In this document: positions 29,214 through 51,204 of the stretch, piece by piece
Layout of the letters: each line of letters opens with the position of its first letter
Position numbering within the stretch: the stretch's first letter is position 1
Assembly (NCBI RefSeq): GCF_009749385.1
Contig: NZ_WBIN01000010.1
Location: 62,001 to 126,000 of the forward strand
Length of the DNA stretch: 64,000 bases
Reading direction: 5' to 3'
Origin: Agromyces allii
GTDB taxonomy: Bacteria > Actinomycetota > Actinomycetes > Actinomycetales > Microbacteriaceae
The notes under the pieces: generated by a model
Told to the model about the DNA's origin: nothing
Database searches by the model: none
The model's input: only the letters and a program-made list of their open reading frames with translations
Made by a program: the position numbers and the translations under genes

Positions 29214-30523
<1,310 letters not shown>

Positions 30524-30527
<4 letters not shown>

Positions 30528-31882
30528 GCGTTCTTGAGCCCTTCTGCGACGACCTGCAGGCCCTCGATGAGGAGGTCGTCCGAGATGGTGAGCGGGGGGA
30601 GGAAGCGGATCACGTTGCCGTAGGTTCCGCAGGTGAGCACGAGCACGCCCTGCGAGTGGGCGTACGCGGCGACCTTGCTCGTGAGCGCGGCGTCGGGTGC
30701 GCCGGTCGAGGGGTCGACGAGTTCGATCGCGACCATCGCGCCGCGGCCGCGGACGTCGCCGATGCGCGCGTCAGTGGTGCGCAGGGCGTTCAGGCGGCCG
30801 ATGAGCACGGTGCCGATCTCCTTGGCGCGCTCGATGAGGCCGTCCTCTTCGTAGGCCTCGATCGAGGCGAGCGCGGCGACGCAGGCCATCGGGTTGCCGG
30901 TGTAGGTGCCGCCGAGGCCGCCGGGGCCCGCGGCGTCCATGATCTCGGCGCGGCCGGTGACCGCGGAGAGCGGCAGGCCGCCCGCGATGCCCTTGGCCGT
31001 GGTGATCAGGTCGGGCACGATGCCCTCGTGGTCGCTGGCGAACCAGGCGCCGGTGCGGCCGAAGCCGGTCTGCACCTCGTCGGCGATGAAGACGACGTCG
31101 TTCGCGCGGCACCACTCGACGAGCGCCGGGAGGTACCCGGCGGCGGGCACGATGAAGCCGCCCTCGCCCTGGATGGGCTCGATGATCATGGCGGCGAGGT
31201 TCTCGGCGCCGATCTGCTTCTCGATCTGCGAGATGGCCTTGGCCGCGGCATCCGCGCCCGAGAGGCCGCCGTCGCGGAAGGGGTAGCTGAGCGGCACGCG
31301 GTACACCTCGGGCGCGAACGGGCCGAAGCCGTTCTTGTACGGGATGTTCTTGGCCGTGAGGCCCATGGTGAGGTTCGTACGGCCGTGGTAGGCGTGGTCG
31401 AACGCGACGACGGCCTGCTTCTTCGTGTACGCGCGGGCGATCTTCACGGCGTTCTCGACGGCTTCGGCGCCGGAGTTGAACAGTGCGGAGCGCTTGGCGT
31501 GGTCGCCGGGGGTGAGCTCGTTGAGCTTCTCGGCGACGTCGACGTAGGAGTCGTACGGGGCGACCGTGAAGCACGTGTGCGTGAACGCGTTGAGCTGCTC
31601 GGTGACGGCCGCGACGACCCGCGGGTTCGCGTTGCCGACGCCCGTGACGGCGATGCCCGAGCCCAGGTCGATGATGGAGTTGCCGTCGGCGTCGACGAGC
31701 ACTCCGCCGCCGCCGGCGACGACGGCGATCGGGATGGTGGTGCCGACGCCCGAGGCGACGGCTGCGGCCTTGCGCGCCATGAGCTCCTGCGAGCGCGGGC
31801 CCGGGATGGCGGTGACGAGGCGGCGCTCCTGCGGGAGCGTCGGTCCTCCGGTGACGGTGGCCGTGGTGTCGACGATGGTCAT
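30524..31882 (-). CDS. gabT: 4-aminobutyrate aminotransferase
   Basis: 452 residues, class III PLP transaminase. It transfers the amino group of GABA to 2-oxoglutarate, giving succinate semialdehyde and glutamate. VFIADEVQTGFGRTG holds the PLP-stacking aspartate, LITTAKGIAGGLPLSAV holds Schiff-base Lys297, and GGTYTGNPMACVAAL is typical of GabT. GAGGAG seven bases before the ATG fixes the start. It heads a coupled unit with the glutamate dehydrogenase. A TAGCAT -10 box at 31924-31929 (minus strand) precedes it by about 40 bases. Confidence 0.94.
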
Positions 31883-31923
31883 GACGGGCTCCTCTTCAGG
31901 TGACGACGGTGGCGGTGCGCCCA

Positions 31924-31929
31924 ATGCTA
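31924..31929 (-). promoter_or_regulatory. -10-like box of gabT
   Basis: TAGCAT on the minus strand, about 42 bases before the gabT ATG, fits the TANNNT pattern used elsewhere here. It would leave a leader of about 35 nt containing the GAGGAG ribosome-binding site. Confidence 0.35.
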
Positions 31930-31982
31930 GGTCGCGGCATCCGGATGTCGCACCGCCCCGTCGTACACTTGGAGCCCGTTCA

Positions 31983-32009
31983 CTCGACGCCGCGTACAAC
32001 CGCGTCGAG
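31983..32009 (-). terminator. Hairpin after the ABC permease gene
   Basis: CTCGACGC at 31983-31990 and GCGTCGAG at 32002-32009 form an 8-bp stem with an 11-nt loop, starting 11 bases after the permease stop on the minus strand. It would separate the importer operon from gabT. Confidence 0.6.
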
Positions 32010-32020
32010 CAACGGTTCCG

Positions 32021-33910
32021 TCAGCGCCTGGCCAGCTGCCTGCGCTCCTCGAGGTCCTGCGCGGCGACCGCGCGGGTGTCGGGGGCGACCGGGTCGGCCG
32101 GGGGCACCACGTCGGCCGTTCCGACGCCGGGGATCGGGTTGCGCCGCTTCGCGCGGCCGATCGCGAAGAGCGAGACGACCCACTGCAGGCCGTACCCGAT
32201 CGCGAAGACGAGCAGCGTGAAGATCAGCGCCATCGCAGCACCCTGGTCGGGCTGGTAGAGCTGCGCCGAGCGCGGGCTGATCATCGCGTACATGTAGACC
32301 GAGAGCGGACGGGACTCGGGCGTCGCGAGGAACGCCGGGAGGGTGAACTCGTTCGTGCCGAGCACGAACATCTGGATCCACACGGCGAAGACGGTCGGCA
32401 TGAGCAGCGGGGCGACGATGCGGCGGAATCCCTCGAACGGGCTCGCGCCGCTCACGAGCGCGGCCTCCTCGAGCTCCATGCGGATCTGCAGCGTCGCGCT
32501 GTATCCTGCGCGGTAGGCGATCGACACCCGGTACGAGTACGCGATGATCAGCGCCACGATGGTGCCCGCCAGCGGGATCACCGGGTTGATGACCATGAAG
32601 GTGAGGAACATCGCGAAGCCCGCGATGACCGCCGGGATCGCGACCGACGACGAGGCGAACAGGTCGACGGCCTTGGTCCACCCGGTGCGCCTGGCCCGCG
32701 CGATGCCGTAGGCGAGCACCGTCGCCGCGACGCACGCGATGGTCGCGCTGCCGCCCGCGATGACCAGCGTGCGGCCCAGCGAGGCCCAGAACTCCGGGTC
32801 GGCGAGCACGGCGCCGAACGAGCCGAACTGCGTCTGCGTGACCAGCGCCTCGAACGAGAACGCGATCGGGTACGGCGTGATCGCCGACCAGAACAGGGCG
32901 AAGAGCGGAAGGACCGCGGTGAGCATCACGAAGACGAGGATCGCGAGCATGACCGGGATCTTCCACGCGCCGAGCTTCATGACCGTCGGCCGGAACCCCT
33001 TGCCGGAGATCGAGGCGCGCCGCTCGGCGTTGCGCGTCGCCCGGAGGTAGATCACGAACGCGATCGTCGTGATCACGAGGAACACGCACCCCCACGCTGC
33101 GGCGAGGCCGTACTGCGGCAGCTCCCCCGCACCCGCGCTGATGAGGTTCCAGAGCTTGAGGGCGAAGATCGACTTGCCGGACTCCTGGCCGAACAGGAGC
33201 GGCACCTCGAGGCTGCCGAGGCCGAGGATGAACGTGAGCACGGCGACGCCGAGCAGGCCGGGCCAGAGCATCGGCAGCGTGACGCGGCGGAGCGTCTTGG
33301 CCCACGAGGCGCCCGAGACCCGCGCGGACTCCTCGAGCGAGCCGTCCATGCTCGTGAGGATCGGCACGATCATCAGGTACGGGAACGTCACGTTCGTGAG
33401 CGCCTGGATCACCGTCATCGTGACGAACGAGTACGGGTCGATCACGAGGTCGCCCGGCAGCAGGCGCAGCAGCTGGTTCAGCACGCCCGACTCGGGCGAG
33501 AGCATGAGCAGGTACGCCTGCGCCTTGACGATCGGCGGAATGATGAACGGCACCACGACGAGCACCGAGATCACCCGGCGGAGCGGGGCGTCGGTGCGCA
33601 CCGTGACCCACGCGAGCCCGAACGCCATGAGCAGCGAGAGCACCGTGGAGCCGCCCACGAACGCGGCGGTCGAGCCGAGCACGGCCCAGAAGTCGTCGCG
33701 GAGGCTCCACAGGGTGACGAAGTTCTCGACCGACCACTTCGCGGTCGAGACGCCGAAGGGCAGGAACGGACCACGGAAGGCCGTGATCACCTGTACGGCC
33801 AAGGGGATCGCGAGGAGGAGGAAGATCACCGCTCCGGCGATGATCGTCGCGATCTTCATCGAGGTCGGCCGAGTGCGCTCGACCTTCGTGGTCCGTCCTG
33901 CCTGAGACAC
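32021..33910 (-). CDS. Fused double-domain ABC importer permease (FbpB-like)
   Basis: 629 residues containing two binding-protein-dependent permease domains in one chain. The first spans about 70-290 (EAA loop LEESARVSGASWAKTLRRVTLPML) and the second about 365-570 (MELEEAALVSGASPFEGFRRIVAPLL). About 12 helices are expected. This two-in-one layout is typical of the Fe3+/FbpB and related small-molecule importers. The GTG start is three bases from the binding-protein stop; an ATG at 33859 is an alternative. It works with the lipoprotein and ATPase encoded upstream. Confidence 0.9.
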   Translation of the reverse strand: MSQAGRTTKVERTRPTSMKIATIIAGAVIFLLLAIPLAVQVITAFRGPFLPFGVSTAKWSVENFVTLWSLRDDFWAVLGSTAAFVGGSTVLSLLMAFGLAWVTVRTDAPLRRVISVLVVVPFIIPPIVKAQAYLLMLSPESGVLNQLLRLLPGDLVIDPYSFVTMTVIQALTNVTFPYLMIVPILTSMDGSLEESARVSGASWAKTLRRVTLPMLWPGLLGVAVLTFILGLGSLEVPLLFGQESGKSIFALKLWNLISAGAGELPQYGLAAAWGCVFLVITTIAFVIYLRATRNAERRASISGKGFRPTVMKLGAWKIPVMLAILVFVMLTAVLPLFALFWSAITPYPIAFSFEALVTQTQFGSFGAVLADPEFWASLGRTLVIAGGSATIACVAATVLAYGIARARRTGWTKAVDLFASSSVAIPAVIAGFAMFLTFMVINPVIPLAGTIVALIIAYSYRVSIAYRAGYSATLQIRMELEEAALVSGASPFEGFRRIVAPLLMPTVFAVWIQMFVLGTNEFTLPAFLATPESRPLSVYMYAMISPRSAQLYQPDQGAAMALIFTLLVFAIGYGLQWVVSLFAIGRAKRRNPIPGVGTADVVPPADPVAPDTRAVAAQDLEERRQLARR

Positions 33911-33913
33911 GTG

Positions 33914-35083
33914 TTATCCGTTCAGTGCCGCGTCGGCGGCGTTGATCATGGCGATCCAGTCATCGCGGGTGTCGACCGTCTCGGTGATGGCGCCGCCCTC
34001 GAGGCCTTCGAGCAGCGCGGTGGAGTTGGTCTGCATGAGCCCGGTGGCCGAGTCGAACAGCGAGGTCGGCAGGCCCGGGTAGGGCACCTGCGTCGTCGAG
34101 AAGCGCTCGTCGGTCATGCGCAGCTCGAGCCAGTCGGGGTTGTAGGCGTTCCAGAGCGACCAGAGCATGCCGCCGGCCGGGTTCTTCGCGTCGACGTTGA
34201 CGCCCGAGAACTGGGCGAAGACGCCGGCGTCCTCGTAGGGCGAGACCGACAGGCTCGGGTTCGGGTTGAACAGGGTCTGGCCGAGGGCGATCGGCACGTC
34301 GCCGCTCGAGAGCGGCGAGTCCTGGTCCTCGAGCACCTGGAGGTTGCCCGACGACTTGAGGTCGCCGATCAGCCCGGTCATGGCGTCCTCGCCCTTGTCC
34401 ATGCCGTAGCCGGCGAACACGTTGGCGTTGTAGCTCGCGACCGAGACCTTGCCCTCGTACTGCGGGTCGAGCAGTCCGTCGAGCGTGTCGGGCGCCTCCG
34501 CCTTGTCGGTGTTGACCTGCATGAGCGAGCCGTTGACGCTGTCGGGCAGCATCTCGGGGGCGCCGATCGTGAAGAACTCCTTCGGCACGCCGAACTCGGT
34601 CCAGTCGACATCCGCCCAGTAGCCCTCGTCGGTCATCGTCGCGGCCGACACGAGCGAGCCCGAGATGACGTCGGTGTTGCGCGACCCGGTGGCCTTGGCC
34701 GAGATGATCGCCGACGACAGGTTGTAGGTCAGGCCGCGCGTCTCGATCTTCAGGTCGGGGTAGACCGTGTTGAACTCGGCGATGACGTCGGGCGAGAGCT
34801 CGTACCAGTCCCAGATGACCAGCCGACCGCCGTCGGTCGCCTTCGCCGTCTCGTAGAGGGCGTCCATCTGCTTCGAGATCTCGGGCCAGTAGTCCTCGTA
34901 GAAGTTCTCGCAGCGGGTAACCGCGCCGACCTCCACGGCGTCGCAGGCGGCGAGCTCGACCGGGCCGCCGGTCGGCTCGATCGCGCCGGAGGCCGCTGAT
35001 CCCGTCGAACTGCAGGAGCTGAGCAGCAGCATGCCCGCGGCCGCGAGGGCCACCATTCCGTTCCGTGCTGTGGGTGATGTCAT
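33914..35083 (-). CDS. ABC importer substrate-binding lipoprotein
   Basis: 389 residues. A lipoprotein signal peptide ends in LLSSC with lipidated Cys24, so the protein is anchored outside the membrane. The mature part is a type II periplasmic-binding fold: WDWYELSPDVIAEFNTVYPDLKIETRG near 90-115 and later GKVSVASYNANVFAGYG. The pattern resembles the family 1/6 binding proteins that accompany FbpB- and PotBC-like permeases. The ligand cannot be read from the sequence. Given the shared operator with the aromatic operon, an aromatic or amino-acid ligand is possible; iron would be the default from the permease family. Confidence 0.87.
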   Translation of the reverse strand: MTSPTARNGMVALAAAGMLLLSSCSSTGSAASGAIEPTGGPVELAACDAVEVGAVTRCENFYEDYWPEISKQMDALYETAKATDGGRLVIWDWYELSPDVIAEFNTVYPDLKIETRGLTYNLSSAIISAKATGSRNTDVISGSLVSAATMTDEGYWADVDWTEFGVPKEFFTIGAPEMLPDSVNGSLMQVNTDKAEAPDTLDGLLDPQYEGKVSVASYNANVFAGYGMDKGEDAMTGLIGDLKSSGNLQVLEDQDSPLSSGDVPIALGQTLFNPNPSLSVSPYEDAGVFAQFSGVNVDAKNPAGGMLWSLWNAYNPDWLELRMTDERFSTTQVPYPGLPTSLFDSATGLMQTNSTALLEGLEGGAITETVDTRDDWIAMINAADAALNG

Positions 35084-35145: not shown

Positions 35146-35220
35146 GCGGGTGGTGATGTTGCGGGTGGTGATGTTGCGGGTGGTGATGTTGCGGGTGGTG
35201 ATGTTGCGGGTGGTGCGTCT
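35146..35220. repeat. 15-bp minisatellite between binding-protein and ATPase genes
   Basis: GCGGGTGGTGATGTT is repeated perfectly at 35146, 35161, 35176 and 35191, followed by a partial fifth unit that ends at the ATPase stop codon. Related degenerate units (GCCGGTGATGCCGGTGT) precede it. The array fills most of the 135-bp gap upstream of the binding-protein start, so copy number would change leader length. Confidence 0.9.
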
Positions 35221-36343
35221 AGGCCGCGAGCACGCGGCACGCCTGCGGGGTCAGTTCGATGAAGATCGGGTCGCCGAGCGACGGCGAGTTCAGCGGGGCT
35301 CCGCGGCCGACGATGGTGCCGACCGCGGTCTGTCCGCTGAGGATCTCGGCCTCGTACTCGACGATCTCGCCGAGGAACTCGACGCGCACGACGCGGGCCG
35401 GGAGCAGGTTCGGCCGATCGGGAGCGACCTCGTGCCAGCGCACGCTCTCGGGGCGGAAGGTGACGGTCACGTCGGCGCCGGTTCCGAACGTGTCCGGGCA
35501 CGGGGTGACCAGTCGGGCGCCGAAGGCCTCGACGAGCGCGTCGCCGTCGCCGTCGCGACCGCGCACGACCGCGGGGATCATGTTCACGCGGCCGACGAAG
35601 TCCGCGACGAAGCGGTCGGCCGGCTGGTAGTAGAGGTCGCGCGGTGCGGCCTCCTGCACGATGCGGCCCTGGTTCATCACGGCGACCCGGTCCGACATCG
35701 ACAGCGCCTCGGACTGGTCGTGCGTGACGTAGAGCGCGGTGATGCCGAGGCGCTGCTGCAGCGAGCGCAGCTCGTTGCGCATGGTGTCGCGGAGCTTCGC
35801 ATCGAGGTTCGAGAGCGGCTCGTCGAGCAGCAGCAGCTTCGGGCGGTGCGCGAGGGCTCGGGCGAGGGCGAGGCGCTGCTGCTGCCCGCCCGAGAGCGCG
35901 GTGGCGGGGCGGTGGGCGTAGCTGTCGAGCTGCACGAGCTCGAGCGCCTCCATGGCCCGCTTCCTGGCCTCCTTCTTGGGCAGCTTGCCCGCGGCGACCT
36001 GGAGCGGGAACACCGCGTTCGCGAACACGGTCATGTGCGGCCAGATCGCGTAGTTCTGGAACACCATGCCGATGTCGCGCTTGTCGGGCGAGATATGCCT
36101 CGTGCCGGTCGAGAGCACGTTGCCGTCGAGCGAGATCTCGCCGCCGTTGCTGTTCTCGAGGCCGGCGACGCACCGCAGCGTCGTCGTCTTGCCGCAGCCC
36201 GACGGGCCGAGCAGCGACGTGAACGTGCCGGGCTCGATGGTGAACGTGACGCCCTTGACGACCGGAACCTCGGCGCCGTCGAGCTCGTAGTGCTTCTCGA
36301 GGCCGTCGACGACGAGCCGACCGCCTCCGCTTTCGTGCGTCAT
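35219..36343 (-). CDS. ABC importer ATP-binding subunit with TOBE domain
   Basis: 374 residues. Walker A GPSGCGKTT is at 46-54, then signature LSGGQQQRLALARALA, Walker B LLLLDEPLSNLDAKLRD, and H-loop VTHDQSEALSMSD. A C-terminal TOBE-type regulatory domain (about 285-365) is typical of the FbpC/PotA/MalK group. It drives the fused permease encoded two genes downstream. It is 87 bp after the MFS gene and 136 bp before the binding-protein gene, longer gaps than elsewhere in the operon, so internal promoters are possible. Confidence 0.93.
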   Translation of the reverse strand: MTHESGGGRLVVDGLEKHYELDGAEVPVVKGVTFTIEPGTFTSLLGPSGCGKTTTLRCVAGLENSNGGEISLDGNVLSTGTRHISPDKRDIGMVFQNYAIWPHMTVFANAVFPLQVAAGKLPKKEARKRAMEALELVQLDSYAHRPATALSGGQQQRLALARALAHRPKLLLLDEPLSNLDAKLRDTMRNELRSLQQRLGITALYVTHDQSEALSMSDRVAVMNQGRIVQEAAPRDLYYQPADRFVADFVGRVNMIPAVVRGRDGDGDALVEAFGARLVTPCPDTFGTGADVTVTFRPESVRWHEVAPDRPNLLPARVVRVEFLGEIVEYEAEILSGQTAVGTIVGRGAPLNSPSLGDPIFIELTPQACRVLAA

Positions 36344-36429: not shown

Positions 36430-37968
36430 TCAGCGCTCGGCACCCGGCGTCGACGGGACTGCGGTGGCGGGGGTGGCGCGCGGCTCGCCCCATCCGACGG
36501 TGACCTTCGGCTTCGCGAAGAACGTCACCACGACGGCGCAGAGCGCGAACCCGGCGACCGCGAGCCACAGCGACTGCGCCATGGCGGCCGAGAACCCGGG
36601 CACGAGCTCGGGCGGCAGCGCCCCGCCCTCGCCCGGCCGCACCTGCTCGCCGGACGCACCGGGCAGGTGCGCGGCGAGGCTGTAGCTCATGAGTGCCGCG
36701 ACGGCCGCAGAGCCGAGCACCGACCCGACCTGACGGGTCATCGTGTAGACGCCCGACCCGGCACCGGCGCGGGCCGGCGGCAGATTGCGCGTCGCGGTCG
36801 ACGCGAGCGGGGCGAACACGCCCGAGATGCCGAGCCCGAGCAGCGCCGACGGCAGCAGCAGCGCCCAGTACGGGACATCCGGACCGAGGAGGGCGCTGTA
36901 CGAGCCGAGCGCGAGCGCCGAGAGCGACAGTCCCGCGAGCGCGACCCACTTCGGGTCGACGCGGTCGCTGAACCGCCCGACGAGCGGAGAGAGCACGCCC
37001 GAGACCACGGCCATGGGCACGAACATGAGCGCGGCCTGCGACGGGGTCAGCCCGCGCGCCACCTGGAAGTAGTACGCGAGCGGCAGCGGCATGGCCGTCA
37101 TCGCGAGGCCGACGAGCGAGATCGCGACGTTCGACAGGGCGAAGTTTCGGTCGCGGAAGAGGCCGAGCGGCAGCAGCGGCTCGGCGCGGTTGAACGCCTG
37201 CCACACGACGAAGCCCGCGAGCACGACGACGCCCGAGATGATGAGCCCCCACACGGTGATCGGCCCGACGATGGTGCCCCAGTCGTAGGTCGCCCCCTCC
37301 TGGATGCCGAACACGACGAGGAACATGCCGACCGCGCTCAGCAGCACGCCGAGCCAGTCGAACCGGTGCGCGTGCGTCTCGAGGTTCGGCACGAGGCGCC
37401 AGGCTGCGACGAACGCGACGATGCCGACGGGCACGTTGACGAAGAAGACCCACTCCCAGCCCAGCGTGTCGACGAGCACGCCGCCGAGGATCGGGCCGAC
37501 GAGCGTCGCGACGCCCGCGACCGAGCCCCACAGGCCCATCGCCGCGCCCCGCTGGTTCGGCGGGAAGATGCGGGCGATGACCGCCATCGTCTGCGGGGTC
37601 ATGAGCGCGGCGCCGAGGCCCTGCACCGCCCGCGCGGCGATGAGCGTCTCGATGTCGCCCGACAGCCCGCACCAGAGCGACGCGAGCGTGAACACCACGA
37701 GCCCGACCAGGTAGACCCGCTTCGGGCCGAACCGGTCGCCGAGCCGCCCGGTGATGAGCAGCGGCACCGCGTAGGCGAGCAGGTAGGCGCTCGTCACCCA
37801 GATCACCGCGGTCAGGTCGGTGTTCAGGTCGGCGAGGATCGCCGGGTTCGCGATCGACACGATCGTCGTGTCGACGAGGATCATGAAGAACCCGATGACG
37901 AGCGCCCAGAGGGCGGGCCACGGCCGGGTGGCCCGACTGGCGGTGGGGTTGTTCGCGGTCTGATGCAT
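36430..37968 (-). CDS. DHA2-family MFS transporter
   Basis: 512 residues, 14 predicted helices. ILVDTTIVSIANPAIL in helix 1 with the membrane Asp, GRLGDRFGPKRVYLVG as motif A, and AARAVQGLGAALMTPQT are all characteristic of the EmrB/QacA group. It follows the LVIVD-protein gene by 31 bp on the same strand, so the two are likely co-transcribed. Within this regulon it could export a toxic aromatic intermediate; drug export is the family default. Confidence 0.92.
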   Translation of the reverse strand: MHQTANNPTASRATRPWPALWALVIGFFMILVDTTIVSIANPAILADLNTDLTAVIWVTSAYLLAYAVPLLITGRLGDRFGPKRVYLVGLVVFTLASLWCGLSGDIETLIAARAVQGLGAALMTPQTMAVIARIFPPNQRGAAMGLWGSVAGVATLVGPILGGVLVDTLGWEWVFFVNVPVGIVAFVAAWRLVPNLETHAHRFDWLGVLLSAVGMFLVVFGIQEGATYDWGTIVGPITVWGLIISGVVVLAGFVVWQAFNRAEPLLPLGLFRDRNFALSNVAISLVGLAMTAMPLPLAYYFQVARGLTPSQAALMFVPMAVVSGVLSPLVGRFSDRVDPKWVALAGLSLSALALGSYSALLGPDVPYWALLLPSALLGLGISGVFAPLASTATRNLPPARAGAGSGVYTMTRQVGSVLGSAAVAALMSYSLAAHLPGASGEQVRPGEGGALPPELVPGFSAAMAQSLWLAVAGFALCAVVVTFFAKPKVTVGWGEPRATPATAVPSTPGAER

Positions 37969-37998: not shown

Positions 37999-39636
37999 TC
38001 AGTCGGCGACGGATGCCGCGGGCGGCGGCACTGCGGCCGGCAGCCCCACGACGGGCTCGCCGAGCAGCGGCGTCGAGACGGCGTAGATGCCGTGGTTCGC
38101 GAACACCCAGATGAGGTTGCGGTCCCACTCGACGAAGACGCCGTGCACGGGTGCCGCCAGGTCGTCGTCGTCCTTCAGCCCCATGGGCGGCACGAAGTAC
38201 GCGCCGACCTTCGGGTCCTCGGGGTCGCGCACGTCGAAGATCTGCACGCCGGCCGCGTAGAACGCGTACGGGATGACGCCGCCGTGCGGCGTGCCGGTGT
38301 TCGTGAAGTAGCCCGAGCGCTTCGGCCCGAACGACCCGCGGCGCTGCGCCCAGTCGGTGAACTTCGCCTCTGCCGGGGGCAGGGGGCGGGGCAGCGTGCG
38401 CACGAGCTTCGGCTGCGTGGGGTCGCTCACGTCGATCTGGTAGATCTCCTTGGCCGGCTCGTAGCAGTCGGTGTTCATCGGGTAGCCCGAGACGTAGACG
38501 TACCCGGTCTCCTCGACCTGGGTGGTGTCGACGTTGTCGCCCTCGGTCCCGGCGACGCTCGACGGCAGCTCGCACCATCCGACGTGGTGGATGTTCGAGG
38601 GGTCGGAGACGTCGAGCACGAAGAAGCCCTGGCCGCCCTGGGCCGCGTAGGCGTACTTCGCACCGGATTCGACCGAGCGGGGCAGGAACACGCCCATGCG
38701 CGAGCCGAACCACGAGGTCTTGTTGTTCCAGCGGTCGTTGCCCGCGAGGTACTCGGAGTCGGCCTCCTCGCCCTCGCGGGTGCCCGGGACCCACCAGGTC
38801 GAGAGCAGCTCGGGCTTCGACGGGTCGGAGACGTCGTAGGCGGCGTGACCGGCGGCCCAGAGCGTCGTCTTGTAGGGCTGGTTGGTGAAGGTGTTGTCGG
38901 GCGCGGTCGCGACGAACAGGTACTTGTCGCCGTAGTAGACGGGCAGGTCGAGGACGCCGTTGCCCTCCTGGATCTCGTCGGGACCGTGGTTCGGGTCGGT
39001 CGAGGTCTCGTTGACGATGGTCCAGTCGCGCGGGCTCGGGCCGTGCATCTCGAACGTGCGGAAGCCGCGGAGGCCCTCCCATTCCTTGAGCTGGCCCTCG
39101 ACGGTGTCGTCGATCCACTTGTTGGCCACACGGCCCTTGAGGAAGTAGCGGGGCGTCTCGCTCGCCTGGATCGCGAAGTGCTTGCCGAGCTTCTCGTTCC
39201 ACTGCACGGTGGTGGCACCGAACTGGGGGCGGGGGTCGCCCCAGCCCCACTGCTCCTCGTCGACGATCTTCAGGTCGCGCGGGTCGGTGATGTCGTAGAG
39301 CTTCCAGTGGTTGCCGCCGCCGTAGTGCAGCATGTACCGGGTGCCGTCCCAGTCGTAGATGCACTGCCACGAGTGGCTCGTGTTCACGACGATCGGGTAG
39401 AACGCCTCGGCATTCGCGTTCAGCGCGTAGGTCTGGGGGTCGCGGTAGTCGAGCTGCCCGGGCCAGTCGACGAACACGTCGCGCGGCACCGACGGCGTGA
39501 GCGCGGGCGGCAGGAAGGTGCCGTCGGGCTGCATGCCCCAGCTGGCAGGATCGGGGTCGACCGGCTCGCCTTCGACGCGCACGAAGTCGTCGGGGTTGTA
39601 CTTCTTGGCGTCGGGTACGTACGGAGAGCCGGCCAT
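37999..39636 (-). CDS. LVIVD-repeat beta-propeller protein of unknown function
   Basis: 545 residues, with no signal peptide or membrane segment, so presumably cytosolic. Repeated blocks of the form ...LYDITDPRDLKIV, AYDVSDPSKPELLSTWW, FFVLDVSDPSNIHHVGW, IYQIDVSDPTQPKLVRT and VQIFDVRDPEDPKVGAY are LVIVD repeats, which build a beta-propeller. Conserved His and Asp clusters (GGGNHWKLYD, TGTPHGGVIPYAFY, APVHGVFVEW) could line an active site. GGAGG four to five bases before the ATG supports the start. It leads an MFS/ABC transport operon whose upstream region shares a motif with the 3-hydroxyanthranilate operon. No enzymatic activity can be assigned. Confidence 0.85.
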   Translation of the reverse strand: MAGSPYVPDAKKYNPDDFVRVEGEPVDPDPASWGMQPDGTFLPPALTPSVPRDVFVDWPGQLDYRDPQTYALNANAEAFYPIVVNTSHSWQCIYDWDGTRYMLHYGGGNHWKLYDITDPRDLKIVDEEQWGWGDPRPQFGATTVQWNEKLGKHFAIQASETPRYFLKGRVANKWIDDTVEGQLKEWEGLRGFRTFEMHGPSPRDWTIVNETSTDPNHGPDEIQEGNGVLDLPVYYGDKYLFVATAPDNTFTNQPYKTTLWAAGHAAYDVSDPSKPELLSTWWVPGTREGEEADSEYLAGNDRWNNKTSWFGSRMGVFLPRSVESGAKYAYAAQGGQGFFVLDVSDPSNIHHVGWCELPSSVAGTEGDNVDTTQVEETGYVYVSGYPMNTDCYEPAKEIYQIDVSDPTQPKLVRTLPRPLPPAEAKFTDWAQRRGSFGPKRSGYFTNTGTPHGGVIPYAFYAAGVQIFDVRDPEDPKVGAYFVPPMGLKDDDDLAAPVHGVFVEWDRNLIWVFANHGIYAVSTPLLGEPVVGLPAAVPPPAASVAD

Positions 39637-39727
39637 GTCGCCTCCAGGTTGGGCAGGTGATCGGATGTGTCGACGCAGGGGGCGTCGTTCATCCCAGCGT
39701 CGCCAGCGCGACCGATGCTGTCCAATG

Positions 39728-39761
39728 ACTATCCGGCTCGGAGCTATGACCGTTCGGGCAT
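39728..39761 (-). promoter_or_regulatory. LysR-type box and -10 upstream of the LVIVD operon
   Basis: CTATGACCGTTCGGGCAT at 39744-39761, with GAG just before it, matches 17 of 21 positions of the sequence at 40749-40769 upstream of LysR and the aromatic operon. A GATAGT -10-like box (minus strand, 39728-39733) lies beside it. It is placed to control the minus-strand LVIVD/MFS/ABC operon. Binding by the neighbouring LysR protein is inference. Confidence 0.6.
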
Positions 39762-39776
39762 ATCAGCCCGCAGGCA

Positions 39777-40742
39777 TCAGCCCAGCGGGCGGAACTCCGT
39801 CTGCGCGTACTCGCGCTCGAGCGCGGCGAGCAGCGCTCCCTCTTCGCGGAGGTGCACGAGCAGGGCCGCGGCGGCCGCCGAGGGCGCCCGGTCCTTCGGC
39901 ATCGTGACCCCGACCGACCGGCGGATCGAGCTCAACGGGGTCGGCAGGATGCGGAGCTCGCCGTCGTCGACCGCGATGAACATCGGCAGGGCCGCGATGA
40001 CGTCGGTCGACACGAGGAGGTTGCGCAGCGTCAGCATCGACGTGCACTCGACGCGGTCGGCCGGCAGCGGAAGGCCCTCGTGGAAGAAGACCGCCTCGAG
40101 CTCGGCGCGGAGCGCGGTCTGCGCGACGGGGAAGATCCACGGGTAGGCGATGAGGTCGGCGAGCGACGTGCGCGACCCCGTGTGCACGGGGTGCCCGGCG
40201 CGGGCGACGAGCCGGATCGGCTCCTGGTGCAGGCGCTCCTGCTCGAGGCGCACCGGCACGGTCGGCGAGAGTCGCCCGACGGTGAGGTCGAGGTCGCCCG
40301 CGAGCAGCAGTTGCTGGAGCGTGTCGGGGGTGCCCTCGCGCACGACCACGGTGAGCCGCGGATGCTCGGCCTTGAGGCCCGCGATGGCCCGGGGCAGCAG
40401 CAGGTTCGAGCCCGCGAGGTGCGTGCCGACGGTGACCGTGCCGAGCTGGCCCGACTGCAGCAGCCGCACCTCCTCGCCCGCGATGCGGAGCTCGGCGAGC
40501 ACCGACCGGGCGCGCTCGATGAACGGCCGGCCGTACTGCGTCGGCACGACGCCGCGCGGCAGCCGTTCGAAGAGCGGAACGCCGAGCAGGTCCTCGACCT
40601 CGCGCAACCCGCGCGTCACGACGGGCTGCGTGATGTGCAGCGATTCGGCGGCGCGCACGAGCGTGCCCTCGTCGGCGATGGCCGTGACGAGCACGAGGTG
40701 CCGGATCTTCAGTCGTCCGTCGAGGATGCGATCAGTGCTCAC
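39777..40742 (-). CDS. LysR-family transcriptional regulator
   Basis: 321 residues. The N-terminal winged HTH (about 12-75) reads LVRAAESLHITQPVVTRGLREVEDLLGVPLFERLPRGV, classical for LysR. A two-lobe periplasmic-binding-like effector domain follows (about 95-310), with PYWIFPVAQTALR-like segments. The GTG start is preceded at eight bases by TATAGT, so the mRNA may be leaderless, and that -10 lies inside the shared box. It is divergent from the aromatic catabolic operon at 40826. LysR proteins in this position usually activate the pathway in response to a pathway intermediate and repress themselves. Confidence 0.93.
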   Translation of the reverse strand: MSTDRILDGRLKIRHLVLVTAIADEGTLVRAAESLHITQPVVTRGLREVEDLLGVPLFERLPRGVVPTQYGRPFIERARSVLAELRIAGEEVRLLQSGQLGTVTVGTHLAGSNLLLPRAIAGLKAEHPRLTVVVREGTPDTLQQLLLAGDLDLTVGRLSPTVPVRLEQERLHQEPIRLVARAGHPVHTGSRTSLADLIAYPWIFPVAQTALRAELEAVFFHEGLPLPADRVECTSMLTLRNLLVSTDVIAALPMFIAVDDGELRILPTPLSSIRRSVGVTMPKDRAPSAAAAALLVHLREEGALLAALEREYAQTEFRPLG

Positions 40743-40748
40743 GATCCG

Positions 40749-40769
40749 GAACTATAGCCGTGCGGGCAT
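40749..40769. promoter_or_regulatory. LysR-type box between LysR gene and aromatic operon
   Basis: The stretch with CTATAGCCGTGCGGGCAT repeats the sequence at 39741-39761 with four differences in 21. It covers the TATAGT -10 of the divergent LysR gene (40751-40756, minus strand) and sits about 45-65 bp upstream of the -10 of the catabolic operon. This is where LysR activators normally bind. Confidence 0.6.
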
Positions 40770-40813
40770 GGCACTGCCACAAAGGGGCATTTGTCGGCAT
40801 CGACGCGAGTTCC

Positions 40814-40819
40814 TAGCCT
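40814..40819 (+). promoter_or_regulatory. -10-like box of the 3-hydroxyanthranilate operon
   Basis: TAGCCT lies six bases before the ATG at 40826. No ribosome-binding sequence is present, so a leaderless transcript is likely. No good -35 is seen, consistent with activator dependence. Confidence 0.5.
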
Positions 40820-40825
40820 GATCGC

Positions 40826-42346
40826 ATGACCACCCGGACGACGACGTCGCTGCCTGAGACGGCCCAAGCCACCCAGACGAGCGGCCAGGCGACTCGCCAG
40901 CTGCGCAACTTCATCGGCGGCGAGCCCGTCGACGGTGTGCGCACGTTCGCCAAGCTGAACCCGATCGACGGCACGCTCGCCGCCGAGGTGCACGAAGCCG
41001 GGCGGCACGAGGTCGACCGCGCGGTCGCCTCGGCCCGCGCGGCACTCGAGGGCCCGTGGGGGCGGATGACGGTCGGCGAGCGTGCGACGATCCTGCGACG
41101 CATCGCCGACGCGATCGAGCGCCGGTTCGACGACCTCGTCGAGGCGGAGGTGGGCGACACCGGCAAGCCGGAGGCCCTCGCCCGCGACCTCGACGTCGCA
41201 CGGGCTGCCGCGAACTTCCGCGCGTTCGCCGACGTCGTGTCGGCGGCCGGCCTCGACTCCTACCTGACCGAGTTCCCCGACGGACGCCGGGCCCTGAACT
41301 ACGCGGTGCGCAAGCCGCTCGGCGTGGTCGCCGTGATCGTGCCGTGGAACCTCCCCCTGCTGCTCCTCACCTGGAAGCTCGCACCCGCGCTCGCCTCGGG
41401 CAACGCCGTCGTCGTCAAGCCCTCGGAGGAGACGCCGTCCTCGGCGACCCTGCTCGCCGAGATCCTCGTCGAGGCGGGCCTGCCCGCTGGCGTCGTCAAC
41501 GTCGTGCACGGGTTCGGCGCCGATTCGGCCGGTGAGTTCCTCACGACGCATCCGGGCATCGACGGCGTCACGTTCACGGGCGAGTCCTCGACCGGATCCG
41601 CGATCATGCGGGCCGTCGCGCCCCGCGTGCGCCCCGTGTCGTTCGAGCTCGGCGGCAAGAACGCCGCCGTCGTGTTCGCCGACGCCGACCTCGACGCGGC
41701 GATCGCCGGCCTCGCCCGCTCGACCTACCTGAACACCGGGCAGGTCTGCCTCTGCACCGAGCGCATCTACGTCGAGCGGTCCGTCTTCGCCGACGTGGCC
41801 GCCGGACTCGCCGAGCAGGCCGCCCGGCTCCGCCTCGGCCGGCCCGAGAACCCGGCCACGACGACCGGTCCGCTCATCTCGCGGCAGCACCGCGAGAAGG
41901 TGCTCTCGTACTTCGAGCTCGCCCGGCAGGAGGGCGCGACCGTGCTCGCCGGCGGCGGCATCCCGAACCTCGGCGACGGGCTCGACACCGGATTCTGGAT
42001 CGAGCCGACCCTGCTCACGGGGCTCGACAACTCGCACCGCACCGTGCGCGAGGAGATCTTCGGCCCCGTGGCCACCCTCATCCCGTTCGACACCGAGGAG
42101 GAGGCGATCGCGCTCGCGAACGACACCGAATACGGCCTCGCCGCGGTGACGTGGACGCGCGACCTGACCCGCGGGCACCGCGTCGCCCAGCGCATGCGCG
42201 TCGGCATGTCGTGGGTCAACACCTGGTACCTGCGCGACCTCCGCAGCCCGTTCGGCGGTGTCGGCCTCTCGGGCATCGGCCGCGAGGGCGGCCTCCACTC
42301 GCTCGGGTTCTACACCGAGCCGACGAACGTGTGCGTGCAGCTGTGA
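40826..42346 (+). CDS. 2-aminomuconate 6-semialdehyde dehydrogenase
   Basis: 506 residues, ALDH superfamily. [12 protein letters not shown] carries general base Glu274, [12 protein letters not shown] carries nucleophile Cys308, and [17 protein letters not shown] the cofactor motif. The CLCTERI stretch is typical of the hydroxymuconic/aminomuconic semialdehyde dehydrogenase group. It would oxidise 2-aminomuconate semialdehyde to 2-aminomuconate with NAD. First gene of the operon; its TGA overlaps the next gene's GTG. The dehydratase, deaminase and dioxygenase neighbours make the amino rather than hydroxy substrate the better call. Confidence 0.88.
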
Positions 42347-46134: not shown

Positions 46135-46621
46135 CGCGAATGCAACCGCCATCACCGGCGCGAACGCGGCCGCCAGCCGCGCCATCACGGTCGAGGGCAA
46201 GGCGACGCCCCGCGGCCGGTTCCCGCACGTGAAGATCGCGGGCGACCTCGTGTACGTCTCGGGCACCAGCAGCCGACGCCCCGACAACACGTTCGAGGGC
46301 GCCGAGGTCGACGAGTTCGGCGTCACGACCCTCGACATCGCGGTGCAGACCCGCGCGGTGCTCGAGAACATCAGGGCCGTGCTCGCCGCGGCCGGCGCGA
46401 GCCTCGACGACCTCGTGCAGGCGACCACGTACCTCGTGAGCATGAACGACTTCGCCGGCTACAACGCAGTCTGGGCCGAGTACTTCGACGAGACGGGCCC
46501 CGCACGCACGACCGTCGCCGTGCACCAGCTGCCGCACCCGCTGCTGCTCATCGAGATCCAGGCCGTCGCCCGACGAGACCCGAACGCCATCATCAGCACC
46601 ACCATCGAGGAGGAACCATGA
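46127..46621 (+). CDS. RidA-family 2-aminomuconate deaminase
   Basis: 164 residues, YjgF/RidA fold. [25 protein letters not shown] and the [50 protein letters not shown]-type core are conserved, with [11 protein letters not shown] near the end. In this context it should deaminate 2-aminomuconate to 4-oxalocrotonate. ATG 46127 overlaps the decarboxylase stop by 8 bases; an in-frame ATG at 46112 would add five residues. It is coupled to the dioxygenase gene by a four-base overlap. Confidence 0.88.
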
Positions 46622-47142
46622 CCACCATCCCACCCGTGATCGATTTCCCGAAGTGGATCGAGGAGCACGAGCACCTGCTGAAGCCGCCGGTGAACAACAA
46701 GGCCGCGTGGACGCCCATGGGCGACTTCATCGTGCAGGTCGTCGGCGGCCCCAACCAGCGCACCGACTTCCACTTCGACCCGTACGAGGAGTGGTTCTAC
46801 CAGTACCGCGGCAACATGCACGTGAACATCCAGACCGAGAACGGCCCGCAGCGCATAGACATCCGCGAGGGCGAGATGTGGCTGCTGCCCGGCAACGTCT
46901 TCCACTCCCCGCAGCGCCCGGAGGCCGGCTCGATCGGCATCGTGATCGAGCGCATCCGCGAGGAGGGCACGCTCGAGAAGTTCGCGTGGTTCTGCCCGAA
47001 CTGCAACACGAAGGTGCACGAGGTCGAGCTGCAGGTCCGCGACATCGTCGAGGACCTCCCGCCCGTGTTCCGCGAGTTCTACGAGAGCGAGACCGGGCGC
47101 ACCTGCCCGAACTGCGGCGAAGTCCACCCCGGCAAGGGCTGA
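46618..47142 (+). CDS. nbaC: 3-hydroxyanthranilate 3,4-dioxygenase
   Basis: 174 residues, cupin fold. Opens 3-hydroxyanthranilate with O2 to 2-amino-3-carboxymuconate 6-semialdehyde. The catalytic iron ligands are His52, Glu58 and His96 ([12 protein letters not shown] and [10 protein letters not shown]). The bacterial C-terminal rubredoxin-like iron site is intact: Cys126, Cys129, Cys163, Cys166 (FCPNCN and CPNCGE). This is the ring-cleavage step of the operon. It is coupled to the deaminase upstream and five bases from the decarboxylase downstream. Confidence 0.97.
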
Positions 47143-48174: not shown

Positions 48175-49458
48175 ATGAGCATCGCCCCCTCCGTCCCCCA
48201 CGTGATCGACCGCGCGACCTGCACGGCCCTCGACGCCGCCGACCCGCTCGCCGGGCACCGCGACCTGTTCGACCTGCCCGAGGGCGTGGTCTACCTCGAC
48301 GGCAACTCGCTCGGCGCGCTCCCCCGTGCGACGGCCGCGCACGTGCAGCGCGTGATCGCCGAGGAGTGGGGCACCGGGCTCATCCGCAGCTGGAACGACG
48401 CCGGCTGGTTCACCAAGCCGGTCGACCTCGGCGACCGCATCGCCCCGCTCATCGGCGCGTCGGCGGGCGAGGTGGTGCTCGGCGACTCGACGTCGGCGAG
48501 CCTGTTCCAGGTCGCGGTCGCGGCGGCGCGTCTACGCCCCGAGCGCCGGGTGATCGTCTCGGAGCGGGGCAACTTCCCGACCGACCTCTACGTGCTCGAA
48601 TCGGTGCAGGAACTGCTCGGCGAGCCGGCCCGACCGCTCGAGCGCCGACTCGTCGACGACGAGGGCCCGACCCTCGCCGACGTGCTCGGCGAGGACGTCA
48701 CGGTCGTCGTGCTAACTCATGTGAACTACCGCACCGGACGCATGTACGACATGGCGGAGGTGACGCGTCAGGTGCACGCGGCCGGCGCGATCATGGTGTG
48801 GGATCTCTGCCACAGCGTCGGCGCCGTGCCCGTCGACCTCAACGGCGCCGGGGCGGACTTCGCGATCGGATGCACGTACAAGTACCTCAACGGCGGCCCG
48901 GGCTCGCCGTCGTTCGTCTGGGTCGCCGAGCGGCACCAGGCGGCGGCGCGGCCGGCGATCACCGGCTGGCACGGGCACGCGAAGCCGTTCGACTTCGACG
49001 TCGAGTACGCGCCGGCGCCGGGCGTGACCCGGTTCCGCGTCGGCACGCCGCAGCTGCTCTCCGTCGCCGCCCTCGAGGCGAGCCTCGACATCTGGCGCGA
49101 TGTTGACATGGACCTCCTGCGGGAGAAGAGCCTCCGACTCACCGAGCTGTTCATCTCGCTCGTCGACTCGCGGCTCGCCCCGTGGGGCGTCGAGGTCGTC
49201 ACGCCGCGGCAGTCGGCCAGGCGCGGCAGCCAGGTCGCGCTGCGCGCCGGCGTCGCCGACGGCTACGCGGTCATGCAGGCGCTCATCGAGCGCGGGGTCA
49301 TCGGCGACTTCCGAGCGCCCGACCTGATGCGCTTCGGCTTCACGCCGCTCTACGTCTCGCACGCCGACGTGTGGGATGCCGTCGCCGTACTCGAGGACAT
49401 CCTCTCGACCGAGGTCTGGCGCGAGCCGCGGTACGCACGCCGCGGCGCCGTGACCTGA
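48175..49458 (+). CDS. kynU: Kynureninase
   Basis: 427 residues, fold-type I PLP hydrolase. Cleaves 3-hydroxykynurenine (or kynurenine) to 3-hydroxyanthranilate (or anthranilate) plus alanine. YLDGNSLGALP near 41-51, IVSERGNFPTDLYV, VWDLCHSVGAVPVDL and GCTYKYLNGGPGSPSF with Schiff-base Lys236 are classic kynureninase motifs. It is the last gene of the operon, 34 bp after the decarboxylase and followed by a hairpin. It supplies the substrate of the dioxygenase. The upstream tryptophan and kynurenine oxygenases are not in the window. Confidence 0.96.
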   Translation: MSIAPSVPHVIDRATCTALDAADPLAGHRDLFDLPEGVVYLDGNSLGALPRATAAHVQRVIAEEWGTGLIRSWNDAGWFTKPVDLGDRIAPLIGASAGEVVLGDSTSASLFQVAVAAARLRPERRVIVSERGNFPTDLYVLESVQELLGEPARPLERRLVDDEGPTLADVLGEDVTVVVLTHVNYRTGRMYDMAEVTRQVHAAGAIMVWDLCHSVGAVPVDLNGAGADFAIGCTYKYLNGGPGSPSFVWVAERHQAAARPAITGWHGHAKPFDFDVEYAPAPGVTRFRVGTPQLLSVAALEASLDIWRDVDMDLLREKSLRLTELFISLVDSRLAPWGVEVVTPRQSARRGSQVALRAGVADGYAVMQALIERGVIGDFRAPDLMRFGFTPLYVSHADVWDAVAVLEDILSTEVWREPRYARRGAVT

Positions 49459-49499: not shown

Positions 49500-49641
49500 T
49501 CGGCATCGTGCCGACCACCCGATCCGACAGCCGACCGCCTCTGCGCGACCCCCGACGCCCAGCGCGACATCCGACGCCCGCCTGTACACTCAAGCCTGCA
49601 TGTTCGACACCGCGTACATGCCCGAGTGAAGGGTGGCCAGG

Positions 49642-51204
49642 GTGCAACCGACGGTGCAGACCCTGCTCGATCGCCCGGAGCTCGCGCTCGGGCTGCTCAC
49701 CCCGGCGACCGCCCTGCCCGCAGATGCGCTCGCCTCGCCCGTGATGTGGGTGCACAGCTCCGATCTCGCCGACCCCGCGCAGTTCCTCGACGAGGGCCAG
49801 GTGCTGCTCACCACGGGCACGCAGTTCGACCTCGACGAAGCGCGGGCGGATGCCGCGGGCTTCGCACGCGCGTACGTGCAGCGCCTGCGCGATCGCGGCG
49901 TCGCCGCACTCGGGTTCGGCACCGAGGTGATCCGCGACGGCACGCCCGCGACGCTCGTCGACGCGTGCACCGAGCTCGGACTCCCGCTCTTCGAGGTGCC
50001 GTTCCGGGTGCCGTTCATCGCGATCGCGCGACTCGTGGCCGACCTCCTCGCCGAAGACGCGTACGCGCGCGAGGCGTGGGCGCTGCAGGCCCAGCGCGCG
50101 ATCTCGCGCGCCGCGCTGCGCCCCGACGGCCTCTCGGCCACGCTCGCCGAGCTCTCGCAACGGCTCGGGACCTGGGTCGGCCTCATCGACGCGACCGGCA
50201 ACCTCGACCGCGAGTCGCCCGCCGGCGGTCTCCCCCAGCCCGCCCTCGGCGAGGTCGTCGGCGAGGCCAGATCGATGCTGCGCCGCGGACAGCGCGCGGG
50301 CCGCAGCCTGCTCGCCGGCGAATCGGTCGGCGAGCCGCAGCGGGTGACCCTGCAGACCCTCGGATCGGGCGGCGCCCTGCGCGGCGTGCTCGCGATCGGC
50401 GACTCCCCCGAGCTCGATCAGGCCGGCCGCGAGGTCGTGAACTCGGTCATCGCGCTCGCCGGGCTCGCGCTCGAGCAGAACCGCAACCTCGACCGTGCAC
50501 GCGGCCACCTGCGTTCGGGACTCCTGCGGAGCCTGCTGGCCGGCGACCTCGCGCTCGCGCGCGGCGTGGCCACCGAGATGTGGGGCCCGCTGCCCGAGGG
50601 CCAGGTGCGGGTGGCCGTGACCGACGACCCCGGCCACGCGCTCGACCGCCTGTCGGAGCTGCTCGAGCTCCGCGTCGACGAGCGCGACGGCCGCCTGTTC
50701 TTCGCCCGTGACGCGCACCGCGTCGTGCTCGTCCTCGAGGTCGCCGACTCGGCCATCGCCGAGGAGCTCGCGACCGAGTTCGACCTGCCCGTCGGCATCT
50801 CCGACGCGGTCGAGCTCGAACAGCTCCAGGTCGCGCACGAGCAGGCGCTGCGCGCGCTCGAGCGGGCCCGCGAGTCCGGATCGGCGGCCCGCGTCGTCGC
50901 GTTCGACGAGATCAGTCGGCAGGGCGTGCTCGCGTTCCTCGCCCGAACGGACGCGCGGGCGGTCGCGGTCGCGACGCTCGCACCGCTCGTGCAGCACGAC
51001 GCGGCATCCGGAACCACCCTCGTCGACACCGTGCGCACCTGGCTCGAGAACGGCGGCCAGTTCGACGCGACCGCGCAGCAGCTCGGCGTGCACCGGCACA
51101 CCGTTCGCAGTCGCATCGCACTCGCCGAGCGCCTGCTCGAGCGCGACCTCTCGGGTTTCCACGCGCGCGCCGACCTCTGGGCGGCGCTGCTCGCCGTGCA
51201 GTAG
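49642..51204 (+). CDS. PucR-family transcriptional regulator
   Basis: About 520 residues. An N-terminal PucR/purine catabolism-type domain (about 1-125; PVMWVHSSDLADPAQFLDEGQVLLTTG) is followed by a GGDEF-like middle region and a C-terminal HTH_30 (WLENGGQFDATAQQLGVHRHTVRSRIALAERLL). A GTG at 49633 is in frame, but GAAGG nine bases upstream favours GTG 49642. It follows the kynureninase operon after a terminator, in the same direction. It may regulate that operon or another nitrogen-catabolic set; its targets are not evident. Confidence 0.88.
   Translation: MQPTVQTLLDRPELALGLLTPATALPADALASPVMWVHSSDLADPAQFLDEGQVLLTTGTQFDLDEARADAAGFARAYVQRLRDRGVAALGFGTEVIRDGTPATLVDACTELGLPLFEVPFRVPFIAIARLVADLLAEDAYAREAWALQAQRAISRAALRPDGLSATLAELSQRLGTWVGLIDATGNLDRESPAGGLPQPALGEVVGEARSMLRRGQRAGRSLLAGESVGEPQRVTLQTLGSGGALRGVLAIGDSPELDQAGREVVNSVIALAGLALEQNRNLDRARGHLRSGLLRSLLAGDLALARGVATEMWGPLPEGQVRVAVTDDPGHALDRLSELLELRVDERDGRLFFARDAHRVVLVLEVADSAIAEELATEFDLPVGISDAVELEQLQVAHEQALRALERARESGSAARVVAFDEISRQGVLAFLARTDARAVAVATLAPLVQHDAASGTTLVDTVRTWLENGGQFDATAQQLGVHRHTVRSRIALAERLLERDLSGFHARADLWAALLAVQ

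Follow-up and report, generated by a model that had tools for sequence, protein, structure and literature searches.

A composite promoter repeated at two operons, and its predicted link between a PcaQ-like LysR regulator, 3-hydroxyanthranilate/kynurenine degradation and an LVIVD-repeat protein in Agromyces allii

The window studied here (a stretch of 64,000 nucleotides of Agromyces allii) contains a lysR gene standing between two operons, and the question that it raises is whether both of them answer to this regulator. The initial annotation had placed one 21-bp sequence in front of the two operons, read one copy as covering the -10 of lysR, and drawn from this that LysR represses its own gene and that an LVIVD protein and an ABC importer are tied to aromatic catabolism. 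The two copies, GAGCTATGACCGTTCGGGCAT (39741-39761) and GAACTATAGCCGTGCGGGCAT (40749-40769), are indeed found at these coordinates with 17 of 21 positions identical, and the overlap of the TATAGT hexamer of lysR with the box is confirmed in the sequence. The operons had also been called divergent, which holds for the catabolic operon, transcribed opposite to lysR; the LVIVD operon shares the strand of lysR.

Sequence and architecture of the two promoters

When 40743-40825 was compared with 39637-39776 in both orientations, the best 21-mer reached a score of 17. Taken alone this match is suggestive and not conclusive, because a score of at least 17 was also reached by 19 of 5000 dinucleotide-shuffled pairs of both intergenic regions (0.38%). 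The pattern CTATNNCCGTNCGGGCAT is matched without mismatches only by the two boxes in the whole 4.36-Mb genome (4,360,803 bases); with 2 mismatches there are 4 further matches, and the reversed control pattern gave 2 + 6 at up to 2 mismatches. A first search pattern with the wrong spacing found 4 irrelevant matches, recovered neither site and was dropped. Both boxes are even 16-bp T-N12-A dyads of the PcaQ type, and neither follows the canonical T-N11-A spacing of LysR boxes. The elements of the two promoters are the following:

40754..40769 (+), 16-bp dyad box ATAGCCGTGCGGGCAT, proposed as the strong site for LysR in the catabolic promoter
40788..40800 (+), second element CATTTGTCGGCAT, exactly 18 bp past the box, proposed activation subsite
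40790-40795 (+), likely -35 (TTTGTC) of the catabolic operon, inside CATTTGTCGGCAT
40814..40819 (+), likely -10 (TAGCCT) of the catabolic operon, read from the sequence and aligned in relatives, with a predicted start site
39746..39761 (-), second 16-bp dyad box ATGCCCGAACGGTCAT, upstream of the LVIVD operon
39715..39727 (-), element CATTGGACAGCAT, exactly 18 bp past the second box
39725-39720 (-), likely -35 (TTGGAC) of the LVIVD operon, inside CATTGGACAGCAT
39696..39701 (-), likely -10 (GACGCT) of the LVIVD operon, separated from TTGGAC by 18 bp, with a predicted start site
40751..40756 (-), likely -10 (TATAGT) of lysR, overlapping the box, with the GTG at 40742, 8 nt downstream

The similarity of the two promoters extends beyond the 21-bp box. 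Both follow one ungapped register (the 16-bp box, 18 bp, CATTNGNCNGCAT and the -10), and from the box to beyond the -10 they are identical at 36 of 72 positions without any gap. In the catabolic promoter the box is centred at 40761.5, which is 64.5 bp upstream of the ATG of the aldehyde dehydrogenase (ALDH) gene, and the spacer between TTTGTC and TAGCCT measures 18 bp. The ALDH gene is possibly leaderless, because its ATG begins only 6 nt after TAGCCT. The -10 region of the LVIVD promoter can also be aligned in relatives, with a spacer 1 bp longer in several Microbacterium. The arrangement of a LysR-dependent promoter, i.e. a dyad near -65 and a second element at the target -35, is present in the sequence when positions are counted from the predicted starts.

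Between the -10 and the start codon of the LVIVD gene there is, besides, an inverted repeat (CGACGC-CCCCT-GCGTCG; 39671-39687, minus strand). In 17 of 23 LVIVD leaders no better stem exists than the one at this position, and paired changes (CGGCGC..GCGCCG) occur in L038 and L043. A suggested reading is that it could act as an RNA hairpin or as a second operator.

Conservation of the sites in Microbacteriaceae

The search for close relatives of the regulator yielded 23 loci, from which L044 (LysR 28% identical) was excluded; the 22 named loci belong to Agromyces, Microbacterium and Leifsonia, with LysR proteins 87-93% identical. They include many close relatives and near-identical neighbours, and the distinct promoter sequences amount to 21 on the catabolic side (from 24 loci) and 20 on the LVIVD side (from 23 loci). 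Alignment of the intergenic regions in relatives, a check set beforehand, revealed conservation at both promoters: the catabolic box is present in 22 of 22 named orthologues, and the LVIVD site is in register in 21 of 22, L040 being the exception. The strict pattern ATRCCY-N3-CGGYYAT fits only 6 of the 22 on the LVIVD side. Among distinct sequences the box is 91% conserved at the catabolic promoter and 87% at the LVIVD promoter, and the CATT element 97% at both, against 66-69% overall for the flanks (the preceding 20 bp and the following 28 bp). Conservation is also high in the 18-bp gap, with 87% (catabolic) and 81% (LVIVD), so that its contrast with the box is smaller than that of the outer flanks. 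Column by column, 11 of 13 positions are invariant in the CATTTGTCGGCAT element (21 distinct sequences) and 8 of 13 in the CATTGGACAGCAT element (20 distinct sequences).

Weight matrices, from whose training sets L009/L068 was left out, gave a second view of the same relation. With the matrix built from catabolic sites alone, the LVIVD site comes next after the catabolic one in every locus but L023 (21 of 22), although in many of them its score is low in absolute terms, and the matrix built from LVIVD sites ranks the catabolic site next in 22 of 22; in the window the prediction from one promoter class to the other succeeds both ways. Chance similarity of two GC-rich 21-mers, for which it can be said that a 17/21 match alone does occur in shuffled sequence, is contradicted by this conservation, by the common register and by the uniqueness of the boxes in the genome; it keeps almost no probability and was rejected on the conservation of both sites.

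In two lineages, L040 (= L067) and L009 (= L068), the catabolic site is preserved, about 0.95 kb lies between lysR and the LVIVD gene, and the latter has no full box before it; L009 retains a partial one, ATGCCCGTCCGATTTG, with 3 mismatches to ATRCCY-N3-CGGYYAT. These lineages, together with the resemblance of the two promoters to copies of each other, could be taken to mean that a promoter was once duplicated and that its LVIVD-side copy is now without activity. This reading is very improbable, given that the LVIVD box and its CATT element are conserved well above the 66-67% of the flanks on that side, and that the lineages lacking the full site have the longer lysR-LVIVD interval and another promoter-like sequence before LVIVD. 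The latter, in the interval at 13014-13936 in L067 and 6650-7594 in L068, carries a repeat, TTTTGGATTTTGGATACA in one and TTCTGGATTCTGGATACA in the other. The open reading frame in the L067 interval is, judging from a motif, presumably aspartate-dehydrogenase-like.

The regulator and the distribution of its site

The protein encoded beside the catabolic box is a LysR-type regulator:

39777..40742 (-), LysR-type regulator, 321 aa, PcaQ-like, HTH_1 and LysR_substrate domains over cut-off

It belongs to the family by both domains (HTH_1 64.2 bits, cut-off 26.6; LysR_substrate 120.9 bits, cut-off 28). The nearest NCBIfam model is TIGR02424 (PcaQ), with 190.8 bits against an equivalog cut-off of 303.8 (181.6 in L066 and 203.4 in L065), and the linked operon is one for 3-hydroxyanthranilate/kynurenine and not for protocatechuate. 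Since the equivalog cut-off is missed, the protein is not filed as PcaQ; it is proposed, by analogy, that it works like PcaQ.

The distribution of the site was followed beyond the close relatives. The composite pattern ATNNCYNNNYGGNCAT-N18-CATTNGNCNGCAT was written after the promoters of the relatives had been inspected, so the scan was not blind; with at most 1 mismatch it found 7 matches in 6 of 299 family genomes, and its reversed control 0. All 6 genomes fall among the 8 of 299 that have a 3-hydroxyanthranilate dioxygenase over cut-off. The other dioxygenase-bearing genomes, G019 and G182 (= L040), gave no composite match at this threshold, and in G142, G280 (= L022) and G258 (= L033) one of the two sites was found; G644 is the genome of L034. 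The relaxed form ATNNCYNNNYGGNCAT-N18-CATT, with at most 1 mismatch, recovers in the A. allii genome the two sites and two 1-mismatch matches, and reversed controls gave 0.

The box-N18-CATT arrangement also precedes the catabolic operon in five further genomes with LysR proteins 48-56% identical, three of them outside the family. In L066 (LysR 48%) and L065 (51%) the ALDH promoter has the box with CATT 18 bp on, and no close LVIVD homologue was found in either. L092/L100, L093/L099 and L094/L101, from another family with genomes of 7.6-9.2 Mb, encode LysR proteins 56%, 53% and 56% identical (near-full-length matches), divergent from ALDH; the ALDH promoters of L092, L093 and L094 show AT-N12-AT, 18 bp and CATTGG..CAT. 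The second CAT lies one base further on than in the window in L065, L092, L093 and L094. These four sites were first spotted by eye, do not match the full consensus within 4 mismatches and have low matrix scores (-10.0 to 0.3), being top-ranked in three loci and second in L065. Over 11 distant loci the Microbacteriaceae matrix puts the ALDH site first in 6 (L066, L067, L068, L092, L093, L094), L067 being a training genome; L063, L064, L095 and L096 are not convincing. A clear site is absent in L064 (LysR 36%, divergent from ALDH). The stretches L095 and L096 stop short of the ALDH promoter, and their promoters were examined as L097 and L098, where neither an adjoining LysR homologue nor the site was found. 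The site thus appears to go with this group of LysR proteins (48% identity and up), since the loci without the adjoining LysR are also without the site. In L097 and L098 a different LysR (30-35%) is encoded nearer to kynureninase, and the 3-hydroxyanthranilate operon seems there to have changed regulator. A weaker composite match (-9.6; next best -21.6) stands in L063, at 3214, at the start of an MFS transporter reading frame some 4.5 kb from a 42% identical LysR; no other protein of the kynurenine operon of the window was matched in that stretch.

It could be argued that the boxes bind another protein, such as the PucR-type regulator encoded at 49633-51204 (plus strand), whose gene follows kynureninase, adjoins the catabolic operon and is conserved in L069. 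However, L067 and L068 have an intact catabolic site, and no PucR homologue was found in them within 3.5 and 1.9 kb, respectively, beyond kynureninase; box-N18-CATT is kept in L092, L093 and L094, with no PucR homologue in the examined stretch; and in L097 and L098 site and LysR homologue are missing together from the ALDH promoter. This alternative is consequently regarded as improbable. The adjacent LysR is, by strong inference, the binder of both boxes, because the site accompanies the orthologous LysR and was not found in L097 and L098.

The mechanism considered highly likely is that the adjacent PcaQ-like LysR activates both operons through the composite sites and represses its own gene. 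Each box would be the upstream half of a composite promoter (box, 18-bp gap, CATTNGNCNGCAT with the -35, spacer of about 18 bp, -10), with LysR sitting at about -65 of both operon promoters. In the presence of a pathway inducer a second dimer would contact CATT..GCAT, beside the -35, and recruit RNA polymerase, and this would occur twice, at the catabolic operon and at the LVIVD-MFS-ABC operon. The box bound between lysR and the catabolic operon would at the same time cover the lysR -10, and autorepression, as the initial annotation had proposed, fits this geometry. The geometry of occlusion is seen in Microbacteriaceae only, because the box lies 54 bp from the lysR start in L092 and 33 bp in L094, compared with 11 bp in the window; in three distant relatives the distance between box and lysR start is greater or otherwise different. 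The overlap with the lysR -10 would also suit a LysR that is chiefly a repressor, keeping lysR and both operons shut off until it is released by an inducer. That version is unlikely, as both operon promoters have the box about 65 bp upstream and an element at the -35, which is the layout that PMC5002191 describes for LysR activators.

Activation by box and CATT element is proposed because of the parallels with the site of PcaQ and its ABC operon, and PcaQ of Sinorhizobium meliloti is by analogy the closest precedent. According to PMC5002191, PMC4495286 and PMC12285266 this protein of the protocatechuate pathway governs a catabolic operon and the pcaMNVWX ABC transporter. Its site ATAaccgggggatTAT is likewise an even dyad of 16 bp and has its centre 65.5 bp upstream of the gene (PMC5002191), to be compared with 64.5 bp here, and its control of an ABC transporter operon (PMC4495286) resembles the single LysR over catabolism and ABC transport proposed here. 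The differences are the half-sites (ATRCC..GGYCAT here), the pathway (3-hydroxyanthranilate), the actinobacterial host, and a second operon that begins with genes for an LVIVD protein and an MFS efflux pump. The type of circuit is already known: for GcvA, MetR, IlvY and CynR, PMC5002191 describes an upstream site overlapping the promoter of the regulator itself, together with another site beside the target -35. The same layout of divergent autoregulation is predicted here, whereas the recurrence of the composite at the promoter of a further operon, which lies downstream of lysR, sets the present case apart.

The pathway and the LVIVD protein

The plus-strand operon indicates which pathway would be controlled:

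40826..42346 (+), 2-hydroxymuconic/2-aminomuconic semialdehyde dehydrogenase-type ALDH, first gene (TIGR03216 788.6 bits, cut-off 693.25)
46618..47142 (+), 3-hydroxyanthranilate 3,4-dioxygenase (TIGR03037 222.5 bits, cut-off 145.95)
48175..49458 (+), kynureninase (TIGR01814 330.2 bits, cut-off 246.4)

It also encodes an acylating acetaldehyde dehydrogenase, a 4-hydroxy-2-oxovalerate aldolase, two FAA-hydrolase-type proteins, a RidA-like protein and an amidohydrolase, the last two with Ribonuc_L-PSP and Amidohydro_2 above gathering. For the amidohydrolase no NCBIfam model matches, and it is probably ACMSD-like, judging from its place in the operon. Dioxygenase, amidohydrolase, RidA-like protein and semialdehyde dehydrogenase make up the gene set of 3-hydroxyanthranilate meta-cleavage, and a tryptophan 2,3-dioxygenase gene is found elsewhere in the genome. 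The predicted pathway is 3-hydroxyanthranilate/kynurenine degradation, narrower than the "aromatic catabolism" of the initial annotation. The set resembles that of nba-type clusters for 2-nitrobenzoate/3-hydroxyanthranilate meta-cleavage, not only in these four genes but also in the decarboxylase/hydratase-type, aldolase and acylating acetaldehyde dehydrogenase genes; it differs from them in including kynureninase and in having an LVIVD gene as partner. No study of the regulator of an nba-type operon in actinobacteria stood out in searches of open-licence papers.

The minus-strand operon consists of the following genes:

37999..39636 (-), LVIVD-repeat protein, 545 aa, in which no signal peptide is seen by eye
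36430..37968 (-), DHA2-type MFS efflux transporter (TIGR00711 325.8 bits, cut-off 230.2)
35219..36343 (-), ABC transporter ATPase (ABC_tran, TOBE_2), start taken from the reading frame
33914..35083 (-), ABC solute-binding protein (SBP_bac_6 20.6 bits, below the gathering cut-off of 24.6)
32021..33910 (-), ABC permease, two BPD_transp_1 stretches

That the catabolic and LVIVD/MFS/ABC operons are under shared control is well supported by sequence comparison, because conservation, register and co-occurrence agree. Of the tie that had been claimed to catabolism, the part concerning the LVIVD protein stands on these three lines; for the ABC importer it comes down to gene order and short gaps, from which its genes are probably part of the LVIVD transcript. 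Directly after the ABC permease (29214-31999, minus strand) there are genes for a 4-aminobutyrate transaminase (over cut-off) and for a glutamate-dehydrogenase-like protein (below cut-off), and both genes may share the transcript of the permease.

Close LVIVD homologues (at least 86% identical) occur in 6 of the 299 family genomes, and each of these belongs to the 8 that have a 3-hydroxyanthranilate dioxygenase; 8 more genomes have only weak matches of 25-34%. Among 394 genomes of the class, the LVIVD profile is matched at E <= 1e-40 in 9, of which 5 lie outside the family (40-45% identical). In all 5 of the latter the LVIVD gene is in the same stretch as kynureninase and 3-hydroxyanthranilate dioxygenase, downstream of kynureninase on the same strand (1.9 kb in L096). 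The link with the pathway does not depend on the box alone, because it also holds in L095/L097 and L096/L098, where the LVIVD gene is found with the operon although the orthologous LysR is not. By gene content, the LVIVD gene belongs with 3-hydroxyanthranilate/kynurenine degradation.

With regard to the protein itself, the homologues of L092 and L093 show by eye a signal-peptide-like start, which the Microbacteriaceae form is without. The AlphaFold2 model is poor (mean pLDDT 55.5), which makes the Foldseek ranking weak. Its top match is 5hrm, a Sphingobium phosphotriesterase (TM-score 0.46, rmsd 10.4), with E = 0.35 by sequence and 0.9 by profile, behind an unrelated protein; the model is too poor to assign a function, and none was drawn from this likeness. 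A "propeller-like" fold is a weak reading of the strand pattern and the Foldseek list. It is tentatively proposed, with somewhat less than even confidence, that LVIVD is an unrecognised component dedicated to 3-hydroxyanthranilate/kynurenine degradation in bacteria, such as a propeller-fold enzyme or a scavenger of a reactive intermediate. The gene lies within the catabolic gene row in the distant large-genome relatives; in Microbacteriaceae it stands in a separate transporter operon, and would be kept in the regulon by the second LysR composite promoter.

The set of regulator, site and pathway, and its link with LVIVD, were absent from literature searches (open-licence papers only). What began as a 17/21 match is now a promoter grammar open to test (box, 18 bp, CATTNGNCNGCAT, about 18 bp, -10), belonging to a predicted regulator of tryptophan/kynurenine breakdown in actinobacteria, and the uncharacterised LVIVD family gains a pathway through its predicted shared regulation in Microbacteriaceae and its gene neighbourhood in distant relatives.
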